Shown here one piece after another: positions 15,801 through 30,743 of a stretch of 32,217 nt of DNA. The DNA comes from an uncultured Erysipelotrichaceae bacterium (lineage in GTDB: Bacteria; Bacillota_I; Bacilli_A; RFN20; CAG-288). Numbering within the stretch: position 1 is the first letter of the stretch; every line of letters begins with the position of its first letter. The notes below the pieces were generated by a model that worked only from the letters and a program-made list of their open reading frames with translations, was not told the origin of the DNA and did no database searches. The translations under genes were made by a program, and so were the position numbers. The DNA is taken from the NCBI GenBank assembly GCA_902772915.1, contig CACYCE010000005.1, positions 1-32,217 of the forward strand, read 5' to 3'.

Positions 15801-16301
15801 GAACAAACCCGCCAAAACGATTTTTACAATCATCATAATAGCTTGAACTTGATTTAACCAAACGCGGGGGAAAATAACTAAAATCAAGAAAAAGGGGTCA
15901 AATAAATAATAGAAGGAATATGCTGCCACATTATCTACACCATAAGCCCCACCTGTATTCCACAAAGGGAATGTTCCTGTTCTTAAAAAATAACGCCAAT
16001 CATCGTAACCATTGTAGATGAAAGCCATACCCTGGAGTTTAAAATCACCAGTGATAGGAATAGTAAATGATTGAGTAAATAAAGTATAAGCAAAACACAA
16101 AAAAGCAACTAGAGTTAGAATACCTGACAATTGCCATTTAGGAGATTTTTTAATATGCTCCCAAAGCCTTTTCATATAAGAAGGAAAATCATTAAAGAAA
16201 TCCGTCAATAAATTTTTACAATTGAAATAAAGGTCGACGAAAGACAATTTAACATCTTCCATGAATGTATTGGATTTATTTTCTGCGAAGTGACTTTCCA
16301 T
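12816..16301 (-). CDS. YfhO family membrane protein (GT-C-like), very large
   Basis: This 1161-residue polytopic protein is recognised as a YfhO-family member. It has a cytoplasmic N-terminus of about 55 residues, a first helix at about 57-77, then FPLWNTGGAYGVDNVAAYS, the family-typical extracytoplasmic loop. A dozen or so helices run to about 560, a large extracytoplasmic domain (about 575-1125) rich in Asn, Ser, Asp and Tyr follows, and one last helix (about 1128-1148) precedes a basic tail. YfhO proteins are GT-C-type and linked to glycosylation of cell-envelope polymers in Bacillus and Listeria. The extra length over the usual 850-900 residues lies in the outer domain. The ATG shares a base with the stop of the upstream gene (TAATG). 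Confidence 0.85.
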   Translation of the reverse strand: MESHFAENKSNTFMEDVKLSFVDLYFNCKNLLTDFFNDFPSYMKRLWEHIKKSPKWQLSGILTLVAFLCFAYTLFTQSFTIPITGDFKLQGMAFIYNGYDDWRYFLRTGTFPLWNTGGAYGVDNVAAYSFYYLFDPFFLILVIFPRVWLNQVQAIMMIVKIVLAGLFFYDYLGAFNLKTNTKKFGAIAYAFCGWTWFYLWFFHMMEAATFLPLMLLGVEKIIRKKDPRLLTVACFLMGAVNYQYLAIFAVFCFIYAMARFFQTIRQRDAKDNLSVLGFGVIGFGIGIAMVAFIILPSFILIQNMPRISSQATFIDQIKNASSIWDKLKLCLLWPGAISPNLWKETSYTNQTFMHLYPLESLLFINNSCFEEPMTKLSGYDNVGSSIYVSTPILLFIIPSIINAIRKKKITQLIGVVLVIVALETPFVYYASGAFSSVAYGRWEIFVSILIITFVCCHIDDIRSIPRWSLDVSLVIVYILFGITVKFCFDWANNGTFPMLQPLDITYNIMGNNVNMYVFGAIFQGIFYLVCYIPLRVTMKKGKHFDKAMLITIGLDAIIMGNTTIIGFGTSSYSGDIFSGRANFDAQTNIVTQLNNYDSKDQNFYRILNTNMTSNYNFDPNISMAEGYNGLATFCSTINYDTADFFNYSKIAHNPNSYMLSYQDKRINLDEFSGVKYYILKRDNYLDSHSYSYNVPFNFQDVETITEYPETLRNTIKQSNFKLFVNNSFIDRMFFYDNYISSSVADSEMYSDEDKIEVAYLKKAVVDSKYLEANSSVFAPFTRDSHLYGESKDLVYRTSLNNSSIRTYFSRAIWDPNPQTGDSNNGVLRTLDPSMTDSAYSDLHQTELLNSVQSDPNSPYGIVSDKKTSTGKTLFYLKSASDPELAFETNGDEVTNTSTFSWTSDSHSQGAYYSKVLIKSNTALPKAILAQDASKTNKAYVSLGTTNLGHANIDFYLYGYDQETSKYHLITKDGDNFVHQGNLWKSDIGFYVDEPIYKIVGVITYSFFESFSINTAGIEYQSEYDEDIAKIKQTKVEIDYSKSNRNKVVYKTSQDRDRIGVINYPYSSGFKLVRTYTDASNNYVSENVELFKSQGGFISYIAKGGNNVSYTLTYFTPGLNWGGTISQIALISELILFILYYGLKENQRQVERLKKHAYMKKS

Positions 16302-16846
16302 TAAAATAATCCATCCTCTATTTCTACCTTAGAGACATTATCTCCTTTGTTTAACTTAATAAAATCGAGAATAAAGTAACCTTTTTTATCAGTTGAATTA
16401 AAGACTTGATCATCCTCTAGATAATATTCTAACTTAACTATGTTATTTTTATAATCTATTCTTCTAATTTCTGAACGTTTAAAAAAAGTTCCTTCTCTAC
16501 ACACAACCAGCAACTTGTTTTCATTAAAGAAAGTTTCTTTAGAATTAAATATACTTAAACCTCTGGAAATATTCATGTTATCAATATCGTTATATGAATT
16601 TGCTATAGAGGCTTTAGATTCGAAAATAACACCGTCGTTTTTCATCTTTTCCCTGTAAGGATTTTCTCTGATTACTTGGCAAGATAGTTCATTTACTACT
16701 AAAGGATTACTGCTCAAGTCATTAATTCTATATGAGGATCTAGTTCCGTGAGGAAGAAGTAAAAGGGCGACAAAAAGAGCAATAAAAACTAATACGAGGA
16801 TTATCACATAAAGAGGTTTTCTATCTTTTTGAATTATTTCTTCCAT
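16301..16846 (-). CDS. Single-span membrane-anchored protein, unknown function, coupled to YfhO
   Basis: I do not recognise a family. The 181-residue protein has a 13-residue cytoplasmic start, one strong helix (about 12-31) and an outside domain of about 150 residues with alternating hydrophobic and charged residues, suggesting a beta-rich fold. Its stop overlaps the YfhO ATG, so it is probably a partner of that protein on the outer face of the membrane (inference from coupling). No Shine-Dalgarno sequence is visible before the ATG. A TATAAT box lies at 16872-16877 (minus strand), 25 bases upstream, without a clear -35. Confidence 0.75.
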   Translation of the reverse strand: MEEIIQKDRKPLYVIILVLVFIALFVALLLLPHGTRSSYRINDLSSNPLVVNELSCQVIRENPYREKMKNDGVIFESKASIANSYNDIDNMNISRGLSIFNSKETFFNENKLLVVCREGTFFKRSEIRRIDYKNNIVKLEYYLEDDQVFNSTDKKGYFILDFIKLNKGDNVSKVEIEDGLF

Positions 16847-16890
16847 ATATAATCAATATATTTACTAAATAATTATACATCAAAAAGGTT

Positions 16891-16920
16891 AAAGCGCCAC
16901 TTATGTAGAGGTGGCGCTTT
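16891..16920 (-). terminator. Terminator of the tldD-tldE operon
   Basis: AAAGCGCCAC (16891-16900) and GTGGCGCTTT (16911-16920) form a perfect 10-bp GC-rich stem with a 10-base loop. On the minus strand it starts 7 bases after the tldE stop and is followed by AACC then five Ts. Confidence 0.85.
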
Positions 16921-16926
16921 AGATAC

Positions 16927-18246
16927 TTATTTACCAGATATTGCAACTTTTCTAATCGCTATAGAAGGGGCTTCGCAACGATTGTAATTTAAAGTCAAAT
17001 TAGAAGCGACATCGATTACTCTATTGAAGTCTTTTAAGATATTACCTGCGACTGTAATTAAAGTGACAGCTTTACCTAACTTACCATCTTTTATTTCAAA
17101 ACCGTTAGCTTGTAAAGAATAATCTCCCGATTGTTCGTTTAAACCAGTACCTATACCTTCTAAAGAATCAATATAGATACCTTCTTTAATCTTAGCGAAT
17201 AATTCTTCTTCAGATTTCTTACCTGGTTTGATAGAGATAAATCCTAATTCCGGTTCAATATGTCCTCCTACTAAGGCAGCGTTACCTGTAGATTCTTTGC
17301 CTTCTTTTTTAGCTTGTTCCAAATCGTAAATGTAAGTTTTCAGAACTCCATTTTTCACTAGAACTTTCTTTTTAGTAGGCATACCTTCTCTGTCGAATGA
17401 CCCGCCAAAAGGATTCTTAGCAAATGGATCTTCAATAACTGTAATTTTGCTAGAGAGAACTTTCTGATTTAATTTACCTTCAAATAAAGATAAATGTTGG
17501 GCGACCGAGAAAGAAGAAACTTGATTCATTAAAGTTCCTAATAACCAAGAAACGCATATAGGTGAGAAGACTACATCGTATTTCTTAGAAGGGAGAGGAC
17601 TTGCTCCGATTCTTCTAGCTGCGGTCTTGCAAATTTCATCGATCAATTTATCTTTATTGAATTCTTTCAAATCTTTAACTAATTCAAATTTGAATTCAGA
17701 TTCAATATCATCTCCATCTTTAATATTCACAGAGGCGGAGATTACTAAATAATTAACTTTCTCTTTTAAGTGGACACCATTTGAATTCATAAATTCTTGG
17801 TTATCGCTAGATTTAGAGATATTGATATCAGTAACCGTAATTCTCTTTTCTCTATTTCTAAGTTCTTTAGAAATATCTAAAGCTAATTTGATTAATTCTT
17901 CAGAAGATAATTTTTCTAATTCAGGAGAGAAACATTTGTGTTTCTTATATTTATATCCTTTTTGAATATAGAATTCTTTATTACCTTCTAGGCCGTATTT
18001 AGCTGAAGCTATAATAGCATCCATCATTAAATCAGCCACTTTAGAATCAACTCTATCCGAAGCGAAATTACCATTTTTACCTTCGTAGATTCCTCTTCCT
18101 ATTAATTTAGTGTCAGAACTGACAGTCAAATTAGAGATTTCATCTAAATAAACAGAAACAGAAGTAGATGAAGAAGTTTTATATACCAGTTCGAAAGGAG
18201 AAATTCCTCTTTCTTCTGCCTTTTTGAAATATACATTAAAAGCCAT
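16927..18246 (-). CDS. pmbA: TldE/PmbA, non-catalytic partner of TldD
   Basis: The 439-residue protein belongs to the U62/TldD-related family. It contains GTGLNEQSGDYSLQANGFEI, typical of the PmbA C-terminal half. It lacks a HExxxH zinc motif, as expected of TldE, which supports the catalytic TldD in a heterodimeric protease that degrades unfolded or modified peptides and matures some RiPPs. The region KNPFGGSFDREGMPTKK is a conserved strand-turn. It follows tldD by 2 bases and precedes a strong terminator. No RiPP precursor gene is visible nearby, so housekeeping proteolysis is more likely. Confidence 0.9.
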   Translation of the reverse strand: MAFNVYFKKAEERGISPFELVYKTSSSTSVSVYLDEISNLTVSSDTKLIGRGIYEGKNGNFASDRVDSKVADLMMDAIIASAKYGLEGNKEFYIQKGYKYKKHKCFSPELEKLSSEELIKLALDISKELRNREKRITVTDINISKSSDNQEFMNSNGVHLKEKVNYLVISASVNIKDGDDIESEFKFELVKDLKEFNKDKLIDEICKTAARRIGASPLPSKKYDVVFSPICVSWLLGTLMNQVSSFSVAQHLSLFEGKLNQKVLSSKITVIEDPFAKNPFGGSFDREGMPTKKKVLVKNGVLKTYIYDLEQAKKEGKESTGNAALVGGHIEPELGFISIKPGKKSEEELFAKIKEGIYIDSLEGIGTGLNEQSGDYSLQANGFEIKDGKLGKAVTLITVAGNILKDFNRVIDVASNLTLNYNRCEAPSIAIRKVAISGK

Positions 18247-20876: not shown

Positions 20877-21923
20877 TTACAAGGATTTAATAATTCTCAA
20901 TTCTTTAGCTAAATCTAAAAGCAATTCTTCACTCTTCTCCCAGCCTAAGCAAGGATCAGTAATAGATTTACCATAGATTCCTTCTTCAACTTTTTGACAG
21001 CCATCTAACAAATAAGATTCAATCATTAAGCCTTTGATAATTTTTCTTAATTCAGGATTGTGTTTAAAAGAATGTATAACTTCTTTACAAATTCTAATTT
21101 GCTCTAAGTATTGCTTGCCGGAATTATCGTGATTGACATCGACGATAATCGAGGGATTTTCAAAATGTTTAGTTAAATATAATTTAGATAAATTTACTAA
21201 ATCTTCATAGTGATAATTAGCAAAATGTCTACCTTCATCATCAACGTACCCTCTTAAAATCGCATGAGCATAAGGGTTTCCTTTAGACTGAACCTCATAG
21301 CCTCTGTAAATGAAATTATGAGGGTGTTGAGCGGCGTTAATAGAATTTAACATGACAGTTAAATCCCCCGAGGTGGGATTTTTCATACCTACAGGTATAT
21401 CTAAACCTGAAGCGGTCATTCTATGTTGTTGATCTTCCACCGATCTAGCTCCAACAGCTACGTAAGAAAGACAATCAGATAAATATTGGTGATTTTCAGG
21501 ATAGAGCATTTCATCCGCGCAGGAAAAACCAGTTTCTTTAATAGCGCGCATATGCATCTTTCTAATGGAGATTAATCCTCTAACTAAATCTGGATCTTTA
21601 TTGGGATCAGGTTGATGAAGCATACCTTTATAACCCGCTCCAGTAGTACGAGGTTTATTAGTATAGATACGTGGAACGATAGTAATGACATCGTTAATTT
21701 TAGGATAAATATCTCTAAGTCTAGAAATATATTCAATAACTGCGTCTTCTCTATCCGCAGAGCAAGGACCAATAATTAAAAGTAACTTCTCCAATTTACC
21801 GGAGATGATATCTTTAACTTCTTGGTCGTTTCTAGATTTTATTTCCTTTAAATCATTACTAAGAGGATACATTCTCTTAAGTTCATCAGGAGTAGGTAGT
21901 TTTCTTTTAAATTCTAAATTCAT
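20877..21923 (-). CDS. aroF: 3-deoxy-7-phosphoheptulonate synthase (DAHP synthase, type I AroFGH)
   Basis: The enzyme condenses PEP and erythrose 4-phosphate, the entry step of the shikimate pathway. It has 348 residues as in E. coli AroF/G/H. Signatures are LLIIGPCSADRED near 48-60, PRIYTNKPRTTGAGYKGMLHQPDP around 85-110, VGARSVEDQQHR, MKNPTSGD and IVDVNHDNSGK. AroF, AroG or AroH type cannot be told from this, so the symbol is generic. It is the last gene of the aro operon, 0 bases after tyrA. No ordinary terminator follows before hairpin A. Confidence 0.94.
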   Translation of the reverse strand: MNLEFKRKLPTPDELKRMYPLSNDLKEIKSRNDQEVKDIISGKLEKLLLIIGPCSADREDAVIEYISRLRDIYPKINDVITIVPRIYTNKPRTTGAGYKGMLHQPDPNKDPDLVRGLISIRKMHMRAIKETGFSCADEMLYPENHQYLSDCLSYVAVGARSVEDQQHRMTASGLDIPVGMKNPTSGDLTVMLNSINAAQHPHNFIYRGYEVQSKGNPYAHAILRGYVDDEGRHFANYHYEDLVNLSKLYLTKHFENPSIIVDVNHDNSGKQYLEQIRICKEVIHSFKHNPELRKIIKGLMIESYLLDGCQKVEEGIYGKSITDPCLGWEKSEELLLDLAKELRIIKSL

Positions 21924-22763
21924 TTATTTTAACTCTCTCTTTTTAGAAGTCGAGTTATTTAATAGACCTTCTAAAACATTTCTATCTTCTTTTTCGATAG
22001 CTTCTTCCATTTTATCTAATTCTCTTTTGAATTGCTCTATTTTTTTAATCAATTCATCTTTATTGAGAATGAATAATTCACTCCACATTTTAGAATTAAT
22101 ATCGCTGATTCTAGTTAAATCTTTAAAAGAATTCCCAATATATGGGGAGATATCTTTATTATCCGAAGAATTAATTAGTGTTGATGATAAAACGTGAGGC
22201 AATTGTGAGACGTAAGCTATTATTTCATCGTGTTCAGATGGAGATAAGATTTTGATATTGTTAAATCCCATCTCTTCAGCTAGAGAAATAACCCACTGTT
22301 TAGCCTCTGAAGAATTTGAATTATCGACAATTATAAAATTGCTCTTATTAAAGCTAACGCTCTTATAATTAAAGACACCTTCTTTTTCACTTCCGGACAT
22401 TGGATGAGTAGGTATAAATTCTACTTCATCGTCTTTAATAATTTCATTTACAGATGTAATTACAGGTTTTTTAACTCCGCTTACATCAGTAAATATAGTC
22501 CCTTTTCTAAAATATGAATGATAAGAATAAATCCAATTTATTAATAAGCTAGGATATAAAGCGAAGATGATTTTATCGAATTCTTGAATGAATTCTTTAT
22601 CTACCTCACTTCTTCCTTCTACGATTATCTTTTCATTTAAAGCGTAAGAAAGTGATTCTTTAGAAATATCTAAAGCGTAGATTTGATAACCCAGTTCACT
22701 TAATTTAGAAGCGTAAGCCCCACCAATCAAGCCTAGTCCGACAATTAAGATTTTCTTATTCAT
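21924..22763 (-). CDS. tyrA: Prephenate dehydrogenase
   Basis: The enzyme oxidatively decarboxylates prephenate to 4-hydroxyphenylpyruvate for tyrosine. It has 279 residues. The NAD-binding GLGLIGGAYASKL is at about 9-21, and THPMSGSEKEGVFNY (about 118-132) carries the catalytic His region. The second half is the all-helical dimerisation domain. There is no fused chorismate mutase and no ACT domain, so feedback control by tyrosine is not evident. The chorismate mutase step is supplied by PheA. The start overlaps the aroA end by 8 bases. Confidence 0.92.
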   Translation of the reverse strand: MNKKILIVGLGLIGGAYASKLSELGYQIYALDISKESLSYALNEKIIVEGRSEVDKEFIQEFDKIIFALYPSLLINWIYSYHSYFRKGTIFTDVSGVKKPVITSVNEIIKDDEVEFIPTHPMSGSEKEGVFNYKSVSFNKSNFIIVDNSNSSEAKQWVISLAEEMGFNNIKILSPSEHDEIIAYVSQLPHVLSSTLINSSDNKDISPYIGNSFKDLTRISDINSKMWSELFILNKDELIKKIEQFKRELDKMEEAIEKEDRNVLEGLLNNSTSKKRELK

Positions 22764-23952
22764 TTTCTTGATAACTCACTTTCGCACCTAATTGAATTAG
22801 AACATCGTAATAATTTGGAAAACTCTTTTCTACACATTCACAAGAAGAGATGCTTACTTCCATTTTAGAACTTAACAGAGATAATGCCATAGCAATTCTA
22901 TGATCATTATGAGAATCAAAATCCCCTTTTAATGGATATGAATTAAGAGGATGAACTTCTATTTCATCATCCTTAATCTCGATTTTCCCTCCGATTTTCT
23001 CTAATTCTTGCTTAATAGCTTCACCTCTATCGCTTTCTTTAATCTTCAACCTTTTAGTTCCAATAAACTTACCACCATTAAATAAAGAAGCGAAGACAAA
23101 TAGAACCGGTCCTAAATCAATGCAATTAGAAATATCTAAAGTGGGTTTGGATACAGCTAATTGATTAAAATAATCTTTATAAACTTTATCGCCTTGATAT
23201 GAAAAAGGATTAAGTCCTTTAACATCTACTTTTCCTCCTAAATAATTAAAGGCATCTAAGAAAGCGGAGTTAGAATAATCTCCTTCTACTACCGAATCGT
23301 AATGTTGATATTTTTGATTGCCTTTAACATAGATAAAGTTATCTCTAAAATCGAATTTAATGCCGTATTTATTTAAAACATCGATAGTTATATCTATATA
23401 AGCTTTACTCTCTAAAGGTGAAGTAATTTCAATAACACTATCACCATCTAATAAAGGCAAAGCAAACAATAAGCCTGTTATATATTGAGAAGAGACATCT
23501 CCTCTAACTTTATATGTAGAAGGAATTAACCTTCCTTTGCAAATAATCTTGTCTTCTAAGCGATTTATTTCAATACCTTTATTTTTAAATGCTTCTATAT
23601 AAACATCGACTCCTCTTTGAACCAACCTAGGAGAGCATTTAAAGATTGCCTTATCTTGTAAAGCTAGAACAAGTGGGATAAAAAATCTTAATGTCGAACC
23701 AGATTCCAAACACGAAAATTCTTCGTCTTTTTCTTTAAAACCATCAAAAGAAACAGAGTTAAAATTAACAATTTTTTTAAAGCCTAAAGAAGAAAGGCAA
23801 GACAAAGTCGCGAAGATATCATTAGAGAAAGCTATATTATCAACTTTAGAAGATGATAAACCCGCTCCAATAAGATATCTATGGGCGTAAGATTTCGAAG
23901 GAGGACAAATGATTTCTCCTATCGGTCTACATTTATTTATTATTACCTTCAT
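22756..23952 (-). CDS. aroA: 3-phosphoshikimate 1-carboxyvinyltransferase (EPSP synthase)
   Basis: The enzyme transfers the enolpyruvyl group from PEP to shikimate 3-phosphate. It has 398 residues, slightly shorter than the usual 420-430. Present are PPSKSYAHRYLI (substrate Lys/Ser/Arg), ESGSTLRFF (the LxSGxxxR block), GDYSNSAF, KESDRGEAI and SHNDHRIAMALSL. It overlaps aroQ by 20 bases and tyrA by 8, which points to strict co-translation. Confidence 0.94.
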   Translation of the reverse strand: MKVIINKCRPIGEIICPPSKSYAHRYLIGAGLSSSKVDNIAFSNDIFATLSCLSSLGFKKIVNFNSVSFDGFKEKDEEFSCLESGSTLRFFIPLVLALQDKAIFKCSPRLVQRGVDVYIEAFKNKGIEINRLEDKIICKGRLIPSTYKVRGDVSSQYITGLLFALPLLDGDSVIEITSPLESKAYIDITIDVLNKYGIKFDFRDNFIYVKGNQKYQHYDSVVEGDYSNSAFLDAFNYLGGKVDVKGLNPFSYQGDKVYKDYFNQLAVSKPTLDISNCIDLGPVLFVFASLFNGGKFIGTKRLKIKESDRGEAIKQELEKIGGKIEIKDDEIEVHPLNSYPLKGDFDSHNDHRIAMALSLLSSKMEVSISSCECVEKSFPNYYDVLIQLGAKVSYQENE

Positions 23953-24382
23953 TTAAATATTCTTTCAAAAATTCTATAGCGTGAATATAACCATTAAATC
24001 CTTCACCCTTGATTGTTTTAATGCAAGCTAATCCGATGTAAGAAATTTGTCTGAAGTCTTCTCTTTTTTCTAATTCCGAAATATGAACTTCTACTGTAGG
24101 TAACTTAACTGACTTTAATGCATCCATAATAGCAATAGAAGTATGAGTATAAGCGCCAGGGTTAATAACTATAGCATCGTAATGTTCAAAATAAGCTTGT
24201 TGAATTAAATCTACCAATTCCCCTTCGTGGTTAGTTTGAAAGATAGAGACGTCAATCTTATGCTCAACGCAATATTTCTCAATCAATTCACACAGCTGAT
24301 TATAATTAGATGTTCCATATATATCAGGTTCTCTAATACCTAACATATTTAAATTCGAACCATTTAAAACCATAATTTTCAT
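23933..24382 (-). CDS. aroQ: 3-dehydroquinate dehydratase, type II
   Basis: The enzyme dehydrates 3-dehydroquinate to 3-dehydroshikimate. It has 149 residues and the type II fold: LNGSNLNMLGIREPDIYG with the catalytic Tyr at about 23, QTNHEGELVD, NPGAYTHTSIAI and VEVHISELEKRE. A type I AroD is not present in the window. It sits 1 base after the aroE-aroK fusion gene. Confidence 0.95.
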   Translation of the reverse strand: MKIMVLNGSNLNMLGIREPDIYGTSNYNQLCELIEKYCVEHKIDVSIFQTNHEGELVDLIQQAYFEHYDAIVINPGAYTHTSIAIMDALKSVKLPTVEVHISELEKREDFRQISYIGLACIKTIKGEGFNGYIHAIEFLKEYLNEGNNK

Positions 24383-24383
24383 A

Positions 24384-25616
24384 TTAGATATCCTCCTTGA
24401 TTTTCTTAACTATTTCTTCAACATCTCTATTACCGTCAATAATTACGTCACTAGCTTTAACATAGAGATTGTAACGTTCCTCATATCTCTTTTTTAATTC
24501 TTCTCTAGATGAAGATAAAGGGCGAGAAGAAGTAGGTATTAAATTCTGTAAAGAGCGATCTAAGAAATACAATTTACCATTTTGTTTGAGGTTCAGGATA
24601 TTTTCTTCTCTAAGAATTACACCTCCTCCGGTAGAAATAATTCTATTGTTTAATCTTGAAACTTCCTTAATTAAGATAGATTCTTTCTCTCTAAAATTAG
24701 ATTCTCCATATTTAGAGATATAATCTCCAGGATGTAATTCATATCTCTGTGCAAACAATTGATCTAAATCGATAAATTCTTTTTTTATTGACTTACTTAA
24801 AGCTTCCCCTATAGTGGTTTTACCTGAACTAGGCATACCTATTAAAACAACATTTTGCTTTTCTTTAAGAATTCTTTGATATTCTTCTTCTATTAGTTTT
24901 TCATCTAATTTCACATCTAAGAATTTCTCTATGGCGTAGAAGGCTTGAGCGACTAACATATATAATCCTCCTACAGCCTTAACACCTTTACTTAAAGCTC
25001 TATTCACCAAATTAGTTTTAATAGGATTATAAATAACATCTATAACTCCTTTTAACGAAGTGAATTTATCTAAATGAATCAATTCGCCTTCATTATTAGG
25101 AAACATTCCTACAGGGGTAGAATTAAAAATAATTTCAATTTCTGGAGCGATAGAATCTAATTCATCGTAAGTATAAGTATTTTCTTTTTTTAAACGAGAA
25201 GCGAAATATATATTTTTCGCTCCTAATTTTTTTACTGTATAAGAGATGGTTTTACTAGTTCCTCCCGTTCCTAAAATCAAGATAGTTTTATCCTTGATTT
25301 CAATATTAAATCTCTCAATTAAAGCCTGTAAACCTAACGTATCAGTATTATATCCATAAAGGATACCTTCTCTATTAACTACAGTATTACACGCTCTAAT
25401 TTCTTTTACTTCTGGAGAGATAAAATTTAGATATTCCATCACTTTTTCTTTATAAGGAATAGTAATGTTTATTCCTTTAAAATCTTTCCTTTTTAAAAAT
25501 GAAGAAAAGCCCTCGTCATCTAATTCTATTAACGAGTATGGATATTTACCTAAAGAAGAGTGGATTTCACTAGAATAAGAATGCCCTAGTTTTTTCCCTA
25601 GCAATCCGTAGTTCAT
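24384..25616 (-). CDS. aroE: Bifunctional shikimate dehydrogenase/shikimate kinase (AroE-AroK fusion)
   Basis: The single 410-residue chain carries two consecutive enzymes. AroE covers about 1-248: NITIPYKE with catalytic Lys56, YNTD with Asp92, NADP loop GTGGTSKT at about 116-123, and FNSTPVGM. AroK covers about 254-410: P-loop GMPSSGKT at 260-267, DLD at 283-285, the FREKE shikimate site, STGGGV at about 328-333, and the lid SRPL. Both active sites look intact. A short charged linker (EEEYQRILKEKQ) joins them. The fusion couples steps that are separated only by shikimate. It starts 1 base after the TGA of aroC. Confidence 0.93.
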   Translation of the reverse strand: MNYGLLGKKLGHSYSSEIHSSLGKYPYSLIELDDEGFSSFLKRKDFKGINITIPYKEKVMEYLNFISPEVKEIRACNTVVNREGILYGYNTDTLGLQALIERFNIEIKDKTILILGTGGTSKTISYTVKKLGAKNIYFASRLKKENTYTYDELDSIAPEIEIIFNSTPVGMFPNNEGELIHLDKFTSLKGVIDVIYNPIKTNLVNRALSKGVKAVGGLYMLVAQAFYAIEKFLDVKLDEKLIEEEYQRILKEKQNVVLIGMPSSGKTTIGEALSKSIKKEFIDLDQLFAQRYELHPGDYISKYGESNFREKESILIKEVSRLNNRIISTGGGVILREENILNLKQNGKLYFLDRSLQNLIPTSSRPLSSSREELKKRYEERYNLYVKASDVIIDGNRDVEEIVKKIKEDI

Positions 25617-25617
25617 C

Positions 25618-26730
25618 TCAATCTAATCTTTCTTTTAAAAAGACATCACTTCCGTATTTAACTTCTAATAAATCCGCTATGACAATAGCAACCAATGTTC
25701 TAATAACTATATTGATTCTTCTGATAATAGCAGGATCATGTCTACCTATTAATTCAATAGAAGCATTTTGGTTAGTTTTAATATTGATAGTATCTAATTT
25801 CTTAGCGATAGAAGCGGTAGGGCGAATAGCTAAATTAAAAATTACAGGCATGCCGTTAGATATTCCCCCATTAATCCCACCATTTCTATTGGTGGAAGTA
25901 ACTACTTTACCATCTTCATTGTAGAAAGAATCGATAGTCTCACTTCCTCTTTTAGAAGCCATCTTAAATCCTTCTCCAAATTCGATACCTTTAACTCCTC
26001 CTATGCCAAATACAGCTTTGGAAATTTCTGATTCTAAAGAAGAGAACCAGGGTTCACCTAAACCTACAGGTAAATTAGTTATAGCAACTTGAATGATTCC
26101 TCCTACAGAATCTAAATCTTTTCTAGCTATTTCGATCTCTTTTTCCATCTTTAATTGAACGTCATCTAAGACGGGGAAAGACAATTTATTTAAATAATCA
26201 ATTTCTCTTTCTACATCTTTAGAAGAAATAGAAAAATCTCTATCTTCAACCTTTCCACATTGTTTAATGTGAGTTCCAATTTTTATATTAAATTTCTCTA
26301 GAGCGTTTAAAGGAATACTTCCTAAGCCTACTATAGGAGCAGTAATTCTCCCAGAGAAATGTCCCCCACCTCTATAATCTTGGAAGGAGTGGTATTTATT
26401 TTCTGCGACATAATCGATATGAGAAGGGCGAGCCAAATCTTTAGTCTTATCATAATCAGAAGAACGAACGTTATTATTAGAAATAAGAATAGTAATAGGT
26501 TGACCAGTAGTATAAGAATTAAAAACACCAGAGATGATTTGATAATCATCTTTTTCAATTCTAGAAGTCTCATTATTTGAAGAAGGTCTTCTCTTACCTA
26601 AGCATTCTTTTAAGAATTCTTCATCAACTTTAATACCTGGAGTAAACCCATCTAAAGTCGCACCTATATATTCACCATGACTCTCACCAAATAAAGTCAA
26701 AACTAAATTGTTACCTATTGAATTACGCAT
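25618..26730 (-). CDS. aroC: Chorismate synthase
   Basis: This FMN-dependent enzyme eliminates phosphate from EPSP to give chorismate. It has 370 residues. The N-terminus FGESHGEYIGATLDG, then KRRPSSN, RGGGHFSGR and GGINGGISNGMPV are all family blocks with the active-site histidines. It overlaps the end of aroB by 8 bases. It ends in TGA, the one UGA stop I verified here, which shows that UGA is not a tryptophan codon. Confidence 0.95.
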   Translation of the reverse strand: MRNSIGNNLVLTLFGESHGEYIGATLDGFTPGIKVDEEFLKECLGKRRPSSNNETSRIEKDDYQIISGVFNSYTTGQPITILISNNNVRSSDYDKTKDLARPSHIDYVAENKYHSFQDYRGGGHFSGRITAPIVGLGSIPLNALEKFNIKIGTHIKQCGKVEDRDFSISSKDVEREIDYLNKLSFPVLDDVQLKMEKEIEIARKDLDSVGGIIQVAITNLPVGLGEPWFSSLESEISKAVFGIGGVKGIEFGEGFKMASKRGSETIDSFYNEDGKVVTSTNRNGGINGGISNGMPVIFNLAIRPTASIAKKLDTINIKTNQNASIELIGRHDPAIIRRINIVIRTLVAIVIADLLEVKYGSDVFLKERLD

Positions 26731-27739
26731 TTAAATTCTCCTTATCTAAGATTTCTTTCAAGGAATCTAAAGAGATATTTTCAATCCTATATTTCCCTAT
26801 TTGATCGACAAAAACGACATTAATAGTATTACCTCTAGTTTTTTTATCGTGCTTTATATATTTAAAAATTTCCTCTTTATCTAATTCAATTTCGGTAGGT
26901 AAATTATATTTTTTTAAAATAGAGATTATTCTTTGCTTAACTTCTTTAGAAGAAAAATAAAGCATTCCTAAACCCACGCATTCTCCGTGGAGTAATTTCA
27001 TATCTGAAGATGACTCTATAGCATGACCTATAGTATGGCCGAAATTTAAAATTTGTCTTAAACCTTGTTCTTTAGTATCTTTCTCCACAACTTCCTTTTT
27101 TACACTTAAGGCTCTAAATATCACTTCATCGATTACTTTAAATAAATGACCTTTATTGTTATCGATTAAATCTACCAACTTAGGATCGCTAGTAATACCC
27201 ATTTTTAAAGCTTCGACCAAACCGGAATAGAACTGTCTTGCTGATAAGGTTTTTAAAGTCGAAGTATCAATCAAAACACATTTAGGTTGATAGAAGGTTC
27301 CAATGATATTTTTATAAGTCAAAAAATCAACAGCAGTCTTTCCCCCTATAGAAGAATCAACTTGGGAAAGTAAAGTTGTAGGGCAATTGTAAAAATCTAT
27401 TCCTCTCATGTAAGTAGAAGCGACAAATCCCCCTAGATCTCCTACTACTCCTCCCCCTACTGCAACTATACAATCAGAGCGAGTAAATTCATTTTCAACC
27501 AAGACTTTCATAACTTGTAAATAAGAATCGATATTTTTAGATTGCTCACCTTGATCAATAACAAAAGTTACAGCTTCTTTGCATTGTTGCTTAATAGCTT
27601 CTGAATAAACAATAGGAACTCCTGAATCAGAGAGAATTAAAACTTTTCGATCCAAATTAAAATAGGAGGAAGCTTTCTTTAAGATTCCATTTTCAATAAT
27701 TACTTGATACTTATTTTGAACGTTGACATCTAAAATCAT
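26723..27739 (-). CDS. aroB: 3-dehydroquinate synthase
   Basis: The enzyme converts DAHP to 3-dehydroquinate with NAD and a divalent metal. It has 338 residues. Visible are DQGEQSKN, VAVGGGVVGDLGGFVASTYMRG (NAD site), PTTLLSQVDSSIGGKTAVD and the metal ligands in LNFGHTIGHAIES and HGECV. It starts 1 base after pheA and overlaps aroC. Confidence 0.95.
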   Translation of the reverse strand: MILDVNVQNKYQVIIENGILKKASSYFNLDRKVLILSDSGVPIVYSEAIKQQCKEAVTFVIDQGEQSKNIDSYLQVMKVLVENEFTRSDCIVAVGGGVVGDLGGFVASTYMRGIDFYNCPTTLLSQVDSSIGGKTAVDFLTYKNIIGTFYQPKCVLIDTSTLKTLSARQFYSGLVEALKMGITSDPKLVDLIDNNKGHLFKVIDEVIFRALSVKKEVVEKDTKEQGLRQILNFGHTIGHAIESSSDMKLLHGECVGLGMLYFSSKEVKQRIISILKKYNLPTEIELDKEEIFKYIKHDKKTRGNTINVVFVDQIGKYRIENISLDSLKEILDKENLNA

Positions 27740-27740
27740 A

Positions 27741-28832
27741 TTACTTCAATAGAGAGTAACTACCAACAACCTTAAATTTATCGCAGAAGCTACTCAATTC
27801 TCCTATCATTTGTCTACCTTCATCAGAATTGATATTACCTTCAATTTCAATGAAGAAATAATAATTCCAAATCAATTCTTTACTAGGGCGAGAACGTAAA
27901 TTACGCATATTGAAATTATGCACTCCTATAATATCTAGAACCTTCGCTAAAGAACCAGAGGAATTAGAAACCGTAAAAACGATGATGAAGTTTTCACCCA
28001 TCTTTGAAGAAGGGTCAACTTGTCTAGGACTTCTAGAAAAAAGGCCAAATCTAGTAGTGTTATTTCTAGAAGTGTTGATATTATCTGCTAGAACATCTAA
28101 AGAATAGATTTCTCCATTAGCTCTATTAGCAATTACTCCTACATCTTTATAACCTTTTTCTTTAAGTTCTTTACAAGCTAGAGCGGTATTGACATATTCT
28201 CTTCTTTGGAAACCTTTAGAGGAGATATATTCATCACATTGAGCAAGAGCTTGAGGATGAGACATGACAGTTTTAACATCCTCTAATTTAACGCCTTTAT
28301 TAACTAACAAAGCGTGATTGATATCCAATTCAATAATTCTATTGATGTATAAAGAGCCGTTGAAAATTAAATCCATTACTTCGCCAACATCTCCAGCGTA
28401 AGAATTTTCAATAGGAAGCACGCAAAGATCTACTTCGCCATTTTCGACTTTCTTATAAGCTGAAGAAAAAGAAGAACAAGGTACTAAATTAGGTGTTTGA
28501 CAAACTTCTCTAGCAGCTAAATAAGCGTAAGCTCCCTTTTCACCACAGTAAGCGACTTTAACACCATCGATAATTTTATTTTGATAATCTTTAGAGACTT
28601 TTAGAATGGATTTAAAAAATTCTACGTAGTAGTCTTTAGTTTCTTCATCAGTAATTAAATCCATATTTTTTTGAATTAATTCCGCTTCTCTTTTTAAATC
28701 TAAAACCGGAAGTCCTTTTTCTTTTTTGTAATAGGCTACCTTTTTAGATTCTTTCATTCTCTTTTGAAATAAATCCGCCATCTGTTTATCAATAGCGGCG
28801 ATATTACTACGAATCTTTTTCAAATCATCCAT
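27741..28832 (-). CDS. pheA: Bifunctional chorismate mutase/prephenate dehydratase (P-protein)
   Basis: The protein converts chorismate to prephenate and then to phenylpyruvate. It has 363 residues in three parts. An AroQ-type chorismate mutase (about 1-90) contains RSNIAAIDKQMADLFQKRM and KREAELI. The dehydratase (about 93-275) has VAYCGEKGAYAY and the conserved NTARFG-like stretch as NNTTRFG. A C-terminal ACT domain (about 285-360) has NLRSRPSK in place of the usual ESRP, so phenylalanine feedback is likely. It is the first gene of the operon; prephenate from its mutase also feeds TyrA. Confidence 0.94.
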   Translation of the reverse strand: MDDLKKIRSNIAAIDKQMADLFQKRMKESKKVAYYKKEKGLPVLDLKREAELIQKNMDLITDEETKDYYVEFFKSILKVSKDYQNKIIDGVKVAYCGEKGAYAYLAAREVCQTPNLVPCSSFSSAYKKVENGEVDLCVLPIENSYAGDVGEVMDLIFNGSLYINRIIELDINHALLVNKGVKLEDVKTVMSHPQALAQCDEYISSKGFQRREYVNTALACKELKEKGYKDVGVIANRANGEIYSLDVLADNINTSRNNTTRFGLFSRSPRQVDPSSKMGENFIIVFTVSNSSGSLAKVLDIIGVHNFNMRNLRSRPSKELIWNYYFFIEIEGNINSDEGRQMIGELSSFCDKFKVVGSYSLLK

Positions 28833-28892
28833 AATAAAACTCTCTTTTTCATTCAGTATTTAGAATATATTACCATATTTATAATATTAACT

Positions 28893-28920
28893 AGTATCCA
28901 TATAGAGGTTATAAAGTCAA
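28893..28920 (-). promoter_or_regulatory. Probable promoter of the aro operon
   Basis: On the minus strand TTGACT (28915-28920, five of six) is followed after 16 bases by GATACT (28893-28898, four of six), or after 17 by ATACTA. The -35 box overlaps the U-tract of the terminator at 28919-28950. The pheA ATG is about 60 bases downstream with AAAGAGAG before it. I see no T-box motif or aromatic-rich leader peptide in that leader. Confidence 0.5.
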
Positions 28921-29000
28921 AATAAAAGCGAGCCCGGAAAGGAGGCTCGCCCCTTGTTGCGGCACTCTGCCAAGTACCTATTCAAACTCGCTTTTTTGCG
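28919..29000 (-). ncRNA. Candidate structured RNA ending in a rho-independent terminator
   Basis: On the minus strand the order is: a CGC-A6-GCG hairpin (28989-29000), a GGCA/TGCC hairpin with a GAG loop (28961-28971), and then the terminator stem GCGAGCC/GGCTCGC (28928-28950, nine-base loop) followed by TTTTATTTT. The segment AAAAGCGAG at 28987-28995 (minus strand) can also pair with the terminator's 3' arm and tail, so two folds compete. No promoter or known RNA family is recognisable, and the 5' end is unknown. It is either a short separate RNA or an attenuated leader upstream of pheA. Confidence 0.45.
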
Positions 29001-29018
29001 AAGATGAATCGAATTTAG

Positions 29019-29048
29019 AATGTGCACAAAAACTGATATTAATGTGCA
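29019..29048. repeat. Direct repeat AATGTGCA with 22-bp period
   Basis: AATGTGCA occurs at 29019-29026 and 29041-29048. The copies are 22 bp apart start to start (two helical turns), and the first is part of the palindrome TGTGCACA. The position between divergent genes fits a cooperative regulator site, but eight-base repeats can arise by chance. Confidence 0.3.
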
Positions 29049-29156
29049 GATAATATAGTATTTATTTTTTTCGCTAAGTTTAGATAAACCGCAAGTTATG
29101 AGACAATTTTATTAATAAAACTTTTAAAATTCAACAAAATCTAAAAACAAATTTAT

Positions 29157-29170
29157 TGAAACCGCTTACT
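29157..29170. promoter_or_regulatory. LacI/CcpA-type operator (cre-like) upstream of GH28
   Basis: TGAAACCGCTTACT matches the cre consensus TGWAANCGNTNWCA at 13 of 14 positions, with the central CG. It lies about 50 bp upstream of the GH28 -10 box. CcpA or a pectin-sensing LacI-family regulator such as KdgR would be expected to bind such a site. No regulator gene is in the window. Confidence 0.6.
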
Positions 29171-29215
29171 TATTATTTTTTAGTGTGCTGATAACAAGTT
29201 GTATATACATAACAA

Positions 29216-29224
29216 TGTTATAAT
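29216..29224 (+). promoter_or_regulatory. Extended -10 promoter of GH28
   Basis: TGTTATAAT at 29216-29224 is a perfect extended -10. The first base of the ATG at 29232 is 8 bases beyond it, so the transcript would start at about the start codon. There is no -35 match. Confidence 0.6.
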
Positions 29225-29231
29225 TGGTAAC

Positions 29232-30743
29232 ATGAAAATAATAACTATCACATCTAGAAGCATCACTATAGAACTTGATAATTCCAAGCCTTACTTTTCA
29301 CCTTCTCCTTTTAAAATCTATTTAAATGGAGAATTATTAAGAGAAGAAAATAAAAATGTCTTCTCTATTTTTGACCTTAGCCCTCATACTTCTTACAAAA
29401 TTAAAATTAACAATGAAGAAATAGAAGTGACGACTAATTCCGAATCTAATCTTATAAAACTATCTTCATTTAACCCCTACAAAGATGGTATTCACGATGA
29501 TACTTGTAAAATTCAAGCTGCGATTTTATGTGCAGTAGAAAATTCTACAGTCTATATTGAAGAAGGAACATATTTAATCACTTCTTTGTTCATGAAAAGT
29601 GGAGTGACTCTCTATTTAGAAAAAGGAGCTAAATTAATAGCTTCTACAAATAGAAATGATTACCCTGTTCTACCTGGAGAATTAAACACGTATTCATTAG
29701 GCTGCTATGAAGGAACTGAGACTGAACAATTCGCTTCTATTATCAATTTTATCAATGTTAATAATTCCTCTTTAATTGGTGAAGGTGAAATTGATTGCCA
29801 AGCAGAAAAAGCTGATTGGTATATCAATCACAGAGTTAAGAGAATCGCTTGGAGAGGGCACGGTATCTACACCAACAGATCTAAAAACATCTTAGTATGT
29901 GGGATTTATTTACATTCAACTCCCGCTTGGGCGGTCCATCCTTTCTTGAGTGAAGAATTAACTTTCTTAAATATGAAGATAGTTAACGAACCTAAGATGC
30001 CTACAACTGACGGAATTGATCCTGACACTTGTAATAACGTAGTAATTAAAGGATGTGAATTTGATGTAGGAGATGATTGTATCGCTATAAAAAGCGGTAC
30101 GCTTCCTCTAGCTAAAAAATATCGTTTACCATGCAAAAACATAGTTATTTCTAACAACTTAATGAATCAAGGTCACGGTGGAGTAGTCTTTGGAAGTGAA
30201 TCTAGTGGTGGAATTGAAAATGTCAATGTAAATAAATGCTTATTCGTCTCCACTGACAGAGGTTTAAGAATTAAAACTAGAAGAGGTAGAGGCCACATAG
30301 GTATTATTAACAACATTTCTTTTACCAATATAGAAATGCGTAAAGTCAAAACACCCTTTGTAGTAAACATGTACTATAACATGGGTCCTAGCGATGGTCA
30401 TAGCGAATATGTCTACACCACTAAAGAACTACCATTTGATGAAAGAACTCCAGTTATAGGTAAATTTAAATTTTCAAATATGAAATGCTACGATGTCGAA
30501 TACGCTTGTGGTGTTTTCTTAGGCTTAAAAGAATCTCCTATAGAAGAAATTGAATTTAACAATGTAGAATTTGATTGTAATCCCAGCTGTGAAGAAGGGT
30601 TCCCTGTCATGATTGAGCACAATATTAAAATGAAGAATATCGGTTTGTATTGTTTAAATGTTAAAAGCATTAAAACAAACAATGTGATTTTCAATAATAT
30701 TAAAGGTGATAAGATATTTATCGCTAAAGGAGATGATGAATAA
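29232..30743 (+). CDS. Glycoside hydrolase family 28 (polygalacturonase-like), cytoplasmic
   Basis: The enzyme is expected to hydrolyse galacturonides from pectin. From the ATG at 29232 it has 503 residues; an upstream TTG at 29199 would place the -10 box inside the gene. A fibronectin-III-like domain (about 1-75) precedes the right-handed beta-helix. Catalytic motifs are TDGIDPD (about 259-265), GDDCIAIKSG (about 281-290), GHGGVVFGSE (about 314-323) and RGLRIKTRRGRGG-like RIK (about 343-352), all intact. There is no signal peptide, so it probably acts inside the cell on imported oligogalacturonides, as an exo-enzyme. Its stop overlaps the start of the transporter gene (TAATG). Confidence 0.9.
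   Translation: MKIITITSRSITIELDNSKPYFSPSPFKIYLNGELLREENKNVFSIFDLSPHTSYKIKINNEEIEVTTNSESNLIKLSSFNPYKDGIHDDTCKIQAAILCAVENSTVYIEEGTYLITSLFMKSGVTLYLEKGAKLIASTNRNDYPVLPGELNTYSLGCYEGTETEQFASIINFINVNNSSLIGEGEIDCQAEKADWYINHRVKRIAWRGHGIYTNRSKNILVCGIYLHSTPAWAVHPFLSEELTFLNMKIVNEPKMPTTDGIDPDTCNNVVIKGCEFDVGDDCIAIKSGTLPLAKKYRLPCKNIVISNNLMNQGHGGVVFGSESSGGIENVNVNKCLFVSTDRGLRIKTRRGRGHIGIINNISFTNIEMRKVKTPFVVNMYYNMGPSDGHSEYVYTTKELPFDERTPVIGKFKFSNMKCYDVEYACGVFLGLKESPIEEIEFNNVEFDCNPSCEEGFPVMIEHNIKMKNIGLYCLNVKSIKTNNVIFNNIKGDKIFIAKGDDE

Follow-up and report, generated by a model that had tools for sequence, protein, structure and literature searches.

The pheA-GH28 intergenic region

The window (the whole stretch of DNA analysed, 32,217 nt) comes from a genome of 1.27 Mb in 58 contigs that is 93% complete. 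Within it, pheA heads an aro operon (Table 1), and a GH28 polygalacturonase-like gene is divergent from pheA, with an ORF that opens at 29199 and an ATG at 29232 on the plus strand. The intergenic region of about 400 bases between these genes contains the whole of the element described here, which lies on the minus strand, and no same-strand ORF of at least 90 aa is present in the 1500 nt upstream of this pheA element. The sequence-only reading had described a GC-rich terminator preceded by two small hairpins. All three were recovered on the minus strand, with the terminator beginning 122 nt upstream of pheA.

Several other features were observed in this region. A tandem 22-nt repeat starting AATGTGCA (29019-29062, 73% identity) overlaps hairpin 1, and hairpin and repeat may be a DNA operator, for example a regulator site for the GH28 gene, instead of RNA. 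On the plus strand, within a GC-rich block, GGAAAGGAGG (28936-28945) is followed by a 17-codon TTG frame, LLRHSAKYLFKLAFLRR, with its stop at 29007. Upstream of the GH28 gene, a relaxed cre-type (CcpA) consensus has its sole window match, TGAAACCGCTTACT, at 29157-29170 (plus); it finds at least one match in 24 of 100 window shuffles. At 29219-29232 on the plus strand, a TATAAT ends 7 bases 5' of the GH28 ATG with no Shine-Dalgarno sequence between them, so that, judged from this arrangement, the GH28 mRNA is possibly leaderless.

Table 1 Features of the pheA upstream region and the aro operon.
Feature	Position in window	Strand	Basis and remarks
aroB, aroC, shikimate dehydrogenase-kinase fusion, aroQ, aroA, tyrA, DAHP synthase	20877-27739	minus	downstream of pheA, same strand
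pheA	27741-28832	minus	chorismate mutase and prephenate dehydratase domains; ACT under Pfam's cut-off; heads aro operon
Candidate promoter TTGACT-16-GATACT	28893-28920	minus	9/12; overlaps terminator tail
U-rich terminator tail	28919-28923	minus	sequence; continues TTTT of the 3' arm
Intrinsic terminator hairpin (segments 3:4)	28924-28954	minus	terminator scan and fold; 12 bp, 6 G-C, loop CCTTTCC
Hairpin 3	28961-28978	minus	fold; 7 bp, adjoins terminator upstream; with its neighbours better than shuffles
Hairpin 2 (segments 1:2)	28980-29009	minus	fold; two 5-bp helices and an internal loop
Segment 2, AAAAGCGAG	28987-28995	minus	perfect 9-nt complement of terminator 3' arm and U tract (28924-28932)
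Hairpin 1 (TGCACA/TGTGCA)	29023-29048	minus	fold; beyond the range of the sequence-only reading
Candidate leader promoter TTGAAT-17-TAAAAT	29106-29134	minus	9/12; first hexamer at -302 from pheA

Strand-specific folding

Folding of 28919-29060 on the minus strand yields -45.0 kcal/mol (z -4.76), and none of 200 shuffles is as good. With the terminator left out, a 96-nt stretch (29050-28955, minus) retains a z of -3.3, with 2/500 shuffles as good, and a 156-nt stretch (29110-28955, minus) retains a z of -2.5, with 7/500 as good. Three plus-strand stretches of the element have z values of -0.96 to -1.52, near their shuffles. If the minus strand is the structured one, an excess of G-U pairs is expected in its fold, and G-U pairs make up 8 of 38 there compared with 1 of 33 in the plus-strand fold.

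The whole window was also scanned in 1070 stretches of 120 nt on both strands, with 60 shuffles each. The stretch 28921-29040 (minus, z -3.2) ranks 23rd by z; within the window, the element's fold rank is good, not exceptional. The lowest z (-5.7) belongs to 16801-16920 on the plus strand. This stretch includes most of a 14-bp terminator-like hairpin at 16889-16922 (plus), which lies between the genes at 16301-16846 and 16927-18246 and is at the top of the terminator lists in both scans of the window.

Pairing that competes with the terminator

A GCGAG repeated from the terminator 5' arm had been proposed to pair with the 3' arm. Taken alone, this repeat is ordinary (478/2000 shuffles as good); what stands is the longer 9-nt complement AAAAGCGAG/CTCGCTTTT, which is matched by 17/5000 shuffles over 80 nt upstream and by 20/5000 over 140 nt. 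Duplexes of each terminator arm with upstream segments gave a similar picture, with 10/500 shuffles as good for the 3' arm and 302/500 for the 5' arm. For the 3' arm alone, out of these two, an upstream partner (segment 2) exceeds chance; the best 5'-arm antiterminator in the window leader, a duplex of -9.9, does not.

A fold in which the 2:4 helix is forced reaches -38.5 kcal/mol, 6.5 kcal/mol weaker than the terminator fold. It retains hairpin 3, and a small AAGGGG/CUCCUU hairpin occupies the terminator 5' arm. In the free equilibrium ensemble, a core pair of the terminator has a probability of 0.997. The 2:4 helix would end on the same U tract as the terminator and so would itself resemble a terminator; for this reason, and because its partner would be made last, it is probably not an ordinary antiterminator.

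Known RNA families and conservation

No Rfam family matches the window at gathering score, and the strongest of the weak matches to the element, Xoo2, reaches 18.6 bits (E 0.33) where the cut-off is 45. The T-box model (RF00230) has no match in the window at gathering score, nor any in 28750-29250 at E up to 10, a threshold that lets weak matches through in 10 of the 14 genomes used as controls, some of them archaeal. The source genome holds six T-box model matches, one of them over the cut-off, and the weakest of these (L061, 40 bits) was recovered at E 1.7e-07 in the same kind of search. With this positive control working, a T-box identity was rejected. The earlier description of an aro operon without a recognisable T-box is thus borne out, in gene content as well. 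The two weakest T-box matches of the genome (L060 and L061) were read and contain a GGTACCGCG core. By eye, an upstream arm in these two T-boxes can pair with the terminator 3' arm across a long loop, which is a likeness to the element; the element differs in having no match to the model.

A mobile element or repeat delimited by AAAAGCGAG/CTCGCTTTT was likewise rejected, there being no second genomic copy at E up to 0.001. Plasmid and phage records gave 8 weak partial matches each, with best E values of 0.03 and 0.1 and none covering 80% of the intergenic query, and an exact copy of the 23-nt hairpin is absent from the viral contigs searched.

Conservation upstream of pheA in relatives, which the sequence-only reading had named as a check, was found in neither sequence nor structure. 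When 98 genomes (own included) were searched at the DNA level, the own locus was recovered and all other matches had E 0.0148 or worse. A one-sequence hairpin model (R1) recovered the own locus at 1.5e-37 among 279 genomes of the order (own included). The foreign matches, with E values per genome of 0.015, 0.034, 0.0374 and 0.076, are at about chance level for 279 genomes; the best of them (L063) was read, and its genome (G239) is without a PheA match below 1e-40. This search used stricter filters, and its repetition with laxer filters over 37 genomes (own included) gave no better foreign match. In the four genomes of the same genus, two of them only 65-67% complete, a search for pheA at E up to 0.001 gave no match. 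The conservation test is weak, since another gene directly abuts pheA in 8 of the order's 15 other pheA loci.

pheA operon heads in other genomes

A PheA match below 1e-40 is present in 16 of the 279 genomes, own included. At the eight loci with an abutting gene, an ORF of 392-422 aa ends within 20 nt of pheA, and it is a class I/II aminotransferase in all seven tested. The source genome has no close aminotransferase copy (two matches, at 24% and 29% identity), and the GH28 gene now stands opposite; from these two observations, the operon head may have been rearranged. The remaining heads vary. In L081, an ORF ends 71 nt before pheA, with a terminator-like site at -87 that overlaps the ORF end and another at -226, and in L088 the upstream region is cut by the contig end. 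L085 is pheA-first, with tRNA genes upstream and its nearest terminator at -252, after the tRNA genes.

Four further loci (L078, L079, L080 and L082) have no gene abutting pheA and a terminator that starts 103-115 nt before it; all belong to one genus (g30) and are hence not independent. Each holds a frame rich in Phe and Tyr codons: MAKEIRSKNLDVNATFSFYFSGYFYFSHFSPAMT in L078 (9 in 34), MELARSTRAYYEFSFYYGSYFYFSQI in L079 (10 in 26, spanning -228 to -150), MVAMELARSAKAYYEFSFYYGSYFYFTQI in L082 (10 in 29, spanning -240 to -153) and a similar frame in L080 (11 in 40). The four loci have ATTGACATATTT in common, with TTGACA at -262 to -276, and a GCCAGC segment pairs with the terminator 5' arm. For this 5'-arm duplex, 4, 4, 18 and 17 of 500 shuffles are as good, compared with 175, 109, 425 and 279 of 500 for the 3' arm. 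An occlusion scan gave scattered upstream pairing both for the window's 5' arm (0, 6 or 8/12 by block, 6/12 with nothing occluded) and for L080 (1, 6 or 7/10); it does not cleanly separate the window from the g30 relatives, whereas the duplex test does. Across the four leaders, the terminator is 100% paired with one compensatory cell and the antiterminator 87.5% paired, also with one, covariation that does not exceed the shuffle control for only four sequences. A second terminator-like site lies within the peptide region of L079 (-190) and L082 (-193). By their anatomy, these leaders (-280 to -80) are apparent leader-peptide attenuators. In the literature searched, no treatment of pheA attenuators of this order was found, which does not show that there is none.

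Five named-record loci outside the order (L067-L071) encode PheA relatives at 47-53% identity. In L067 and L071, an ORF stands directly before pheA. L068 is pheA-first and has a perfect promoter, preceded by a hairpin after the upstream gene; no plus-strand terminator lies between this promoter and pheA. In L070, a promoter is accompanied by two weaker terminator-like hairpins (1719-1735 and 1750-1765) ahead of pheA (1790). L069 (276-590 of MAG contig JAQXLO010000038.1) combines a perfect promoter with a frame of 56 aa that holds 11 Phe/Tyr, and its 12-bp terminator lies 51 nt ahead of pheA. Among 45 operon heads from the loci in hand, two have a terminator starting at -140 to -80, the window's and one other; this control evidently omitted the g30 pheA loci, whose terminators qualify, and shows only that 1 of 44 other heads is positive.

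Leader-peptide search and candidate promoters in the window

Upstream of the window's pheA, frames with an ATG, GTG or TTG start contain no Trp and at most three Phe/Tyr codons (3/36, and 3/8 for a frame at -318, which precedes the candidate promoter). With no suitable frame, compared with 9-11 Phe/Tyr in the g30 relatives, leader-peptide attenuation was rejected for the window itself.

The sequence-only reading also placed a promoter directly after the terminator. A 9/12 site is indeed present there, although such sites occur at chance frequency: 8 were found in 28000-30500 compared with 10.4 expected from shuffles, so that they are not enriched. The candidate leader promoter belongs to the same 9/12, chance-frequency class. 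It is placed like the TTGACA of the four g30 relatives, and a clear intrinsic terminator lies between it and pheA. Thus, the promoter evidence does not decide between the readings.

A proposed attenuation leader and alternative readings

We put at about an even chance the reading in which the element is a leader private to this aro operon and acts by transcription attenuation. Transcription would begin upstream at the candidate promoter (29134-29106), and the mRNA of the operon would carry as its 5' leader the minus-strand stretch between about 29100 and 28919. The terminator would serve as a gate at which most transcripts end unless a feature of the leader blocks its formation, and it would be conditional, reporting aromatic amino acid supply. 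This reading draws on the strong strand-specific folding, which persists without the terminator, on the 9-nt complement to the 3' arm, on the similar terminator distance in the four pheA-first g30 loci (-103 to -115 vs -122) and on the L069 and L070 pheA leaders outside the order. It is weakened by the lack of a homologue, of a Phe/Tyr-rich leader peptide and of a 5'-arm antiterminator above chance, as well as by the near-complete terminator pairing at equilibrium and the possible promoter after the terminator. It is further weakened because the four g30 loci are one genus, L085 is without a nearby terminator and L068 has a promoter without a terminator. An attenuator-like leader, as proposed from sequence, remains the best reading, with similarly placed terminators in g30 and no conservation found in sequence or structure. 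The layout is not the classic one that had been claimed, since the window's segment complements the 3' arm, whereas the g30 segments complement the 5' arm.

The pheA gene of Escherichia coli is an example of a ribosome-mediated (leader peptide) attenuator of the pheA/trp type. Like these attenuators, the element has a terminator in the leader of an aromatic operon, upstream hairpins and a competing pairing. It differs from them in having no Phe/Tyr-rich peptide and in the target of its competing segment, which is the 3' arm instead of the 5' arm. The general mechanism of ribosome-mediated attenuation is set out in PMC1183508. With the g30 leaders, the element shares the absence of a gene abutting pheA, a terminator about 100-120 nt before the start codon and a candidate promoter 260-300 nt before it, but it has neither their frames with 9-11 Phe/Tyr codons nor the GCCAGC that pairs to the 5' arm. 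Judged by position and structure, an attenuation leader whose sensor is different or has been lost is the most likely reading of the element.

An unregulated terminator and a separate short RNA are both serious alternatives to an attenuation leader. The element could be an independent RNA of about 100-180 nt that ends at 28919, with pheA served by its own promoter at 28920-28893; the loop CCUUUCC could then pair with Shine-Dalgarno-like mRNA sequences. The promoter-like site that overlaps the terminator tail, the several stable hairpins and the C-rich loop all fit this account. We nevertheless regard it as unlikely, since the hairpin model finds no relative in 278 other genomes, the own genome lacks a second copy at E up to 0.001, promoter-like sites occur at chance frequency, and similarly placed terminators belong to apparent attenuators in four pheA-first relatives. 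Rather unlikely, too, is a terminator that regulates nothing, either a relic of a lost upstream operon gene or an insulator against antisense transcription from the GH28 side, with the complementarity coincidental. An operon head that may be rearranged, given the ORF that abuts pheA in 8 of 15 other loci, an aminotransferase in the seven tested, and that has no close copy here, would suit such a terminator, as would the absence of conservation in the DNA and R1 searches and a fold that is ordinary within the window. Structure beyond the terminator that is better than chance (2/500), the rarity of the 9-nt complement and a spacing that resembles the pheA-first relatives argue against it.

Other readings are less probable. 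It is improbable that the element works as an RNA switch private to its lineage, with neither T-box nor leader peptide, whose signal is an aromatic amino acid or an intermediate of the pathway and in which an upstream strand would capture the terminator 3' arm while the AAGGGG/CUCCUU hairpin holds the 5' arm. A ribosome-dependent leader-peptide attenuator of the g30 kind, whose peptide is atypical or damaged in this assembly, is very improbable. A stop-to-stop frame at -229 to -148 (ILYYLHINISFCAHSKFDSSSQKSEFE) is placed like the L079 and L082 peptides, but it lacks an ATG, GTG or TTG start, only 5 of its 27 codons are for Phe/Tyr compared with 10 of 26 in L079, and the 5'-arm antiterminator above chance is missing here too. 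Least credible, with only the slightest probability, is a functional RNA on the plus strand that acts as a GH28 leader, in which AAAAGCGAG (28924-28932) would pair with a near CTCGC or with a far CTCGC before TTTTTT. The TTTTTT does follow the second CTCGC, at 28987, and the Shine-Dalgarno-like GGAAAGGAGG lies eight bases before the 17-codon TTG frame; against this, plus-strand folds are near their shuffles and the G-U pairs are concentrated in the minus-strand fold.

Implications for aromatic amino acid regulation

As a single unconserved example, the element is mainly a candidate for RNA work. The search around it brought to light apparent Phe/Tyr leader-peptide attenuators before pheA in genus g30, in the order of a T-box-bearing genome, and four other pheA-first operons of the order, all of this one genus, appear to use leader peptides. 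Should the leader described here prove to be a switch, it would sense aromatic amino acids without being either a T-box or a leader peptide.
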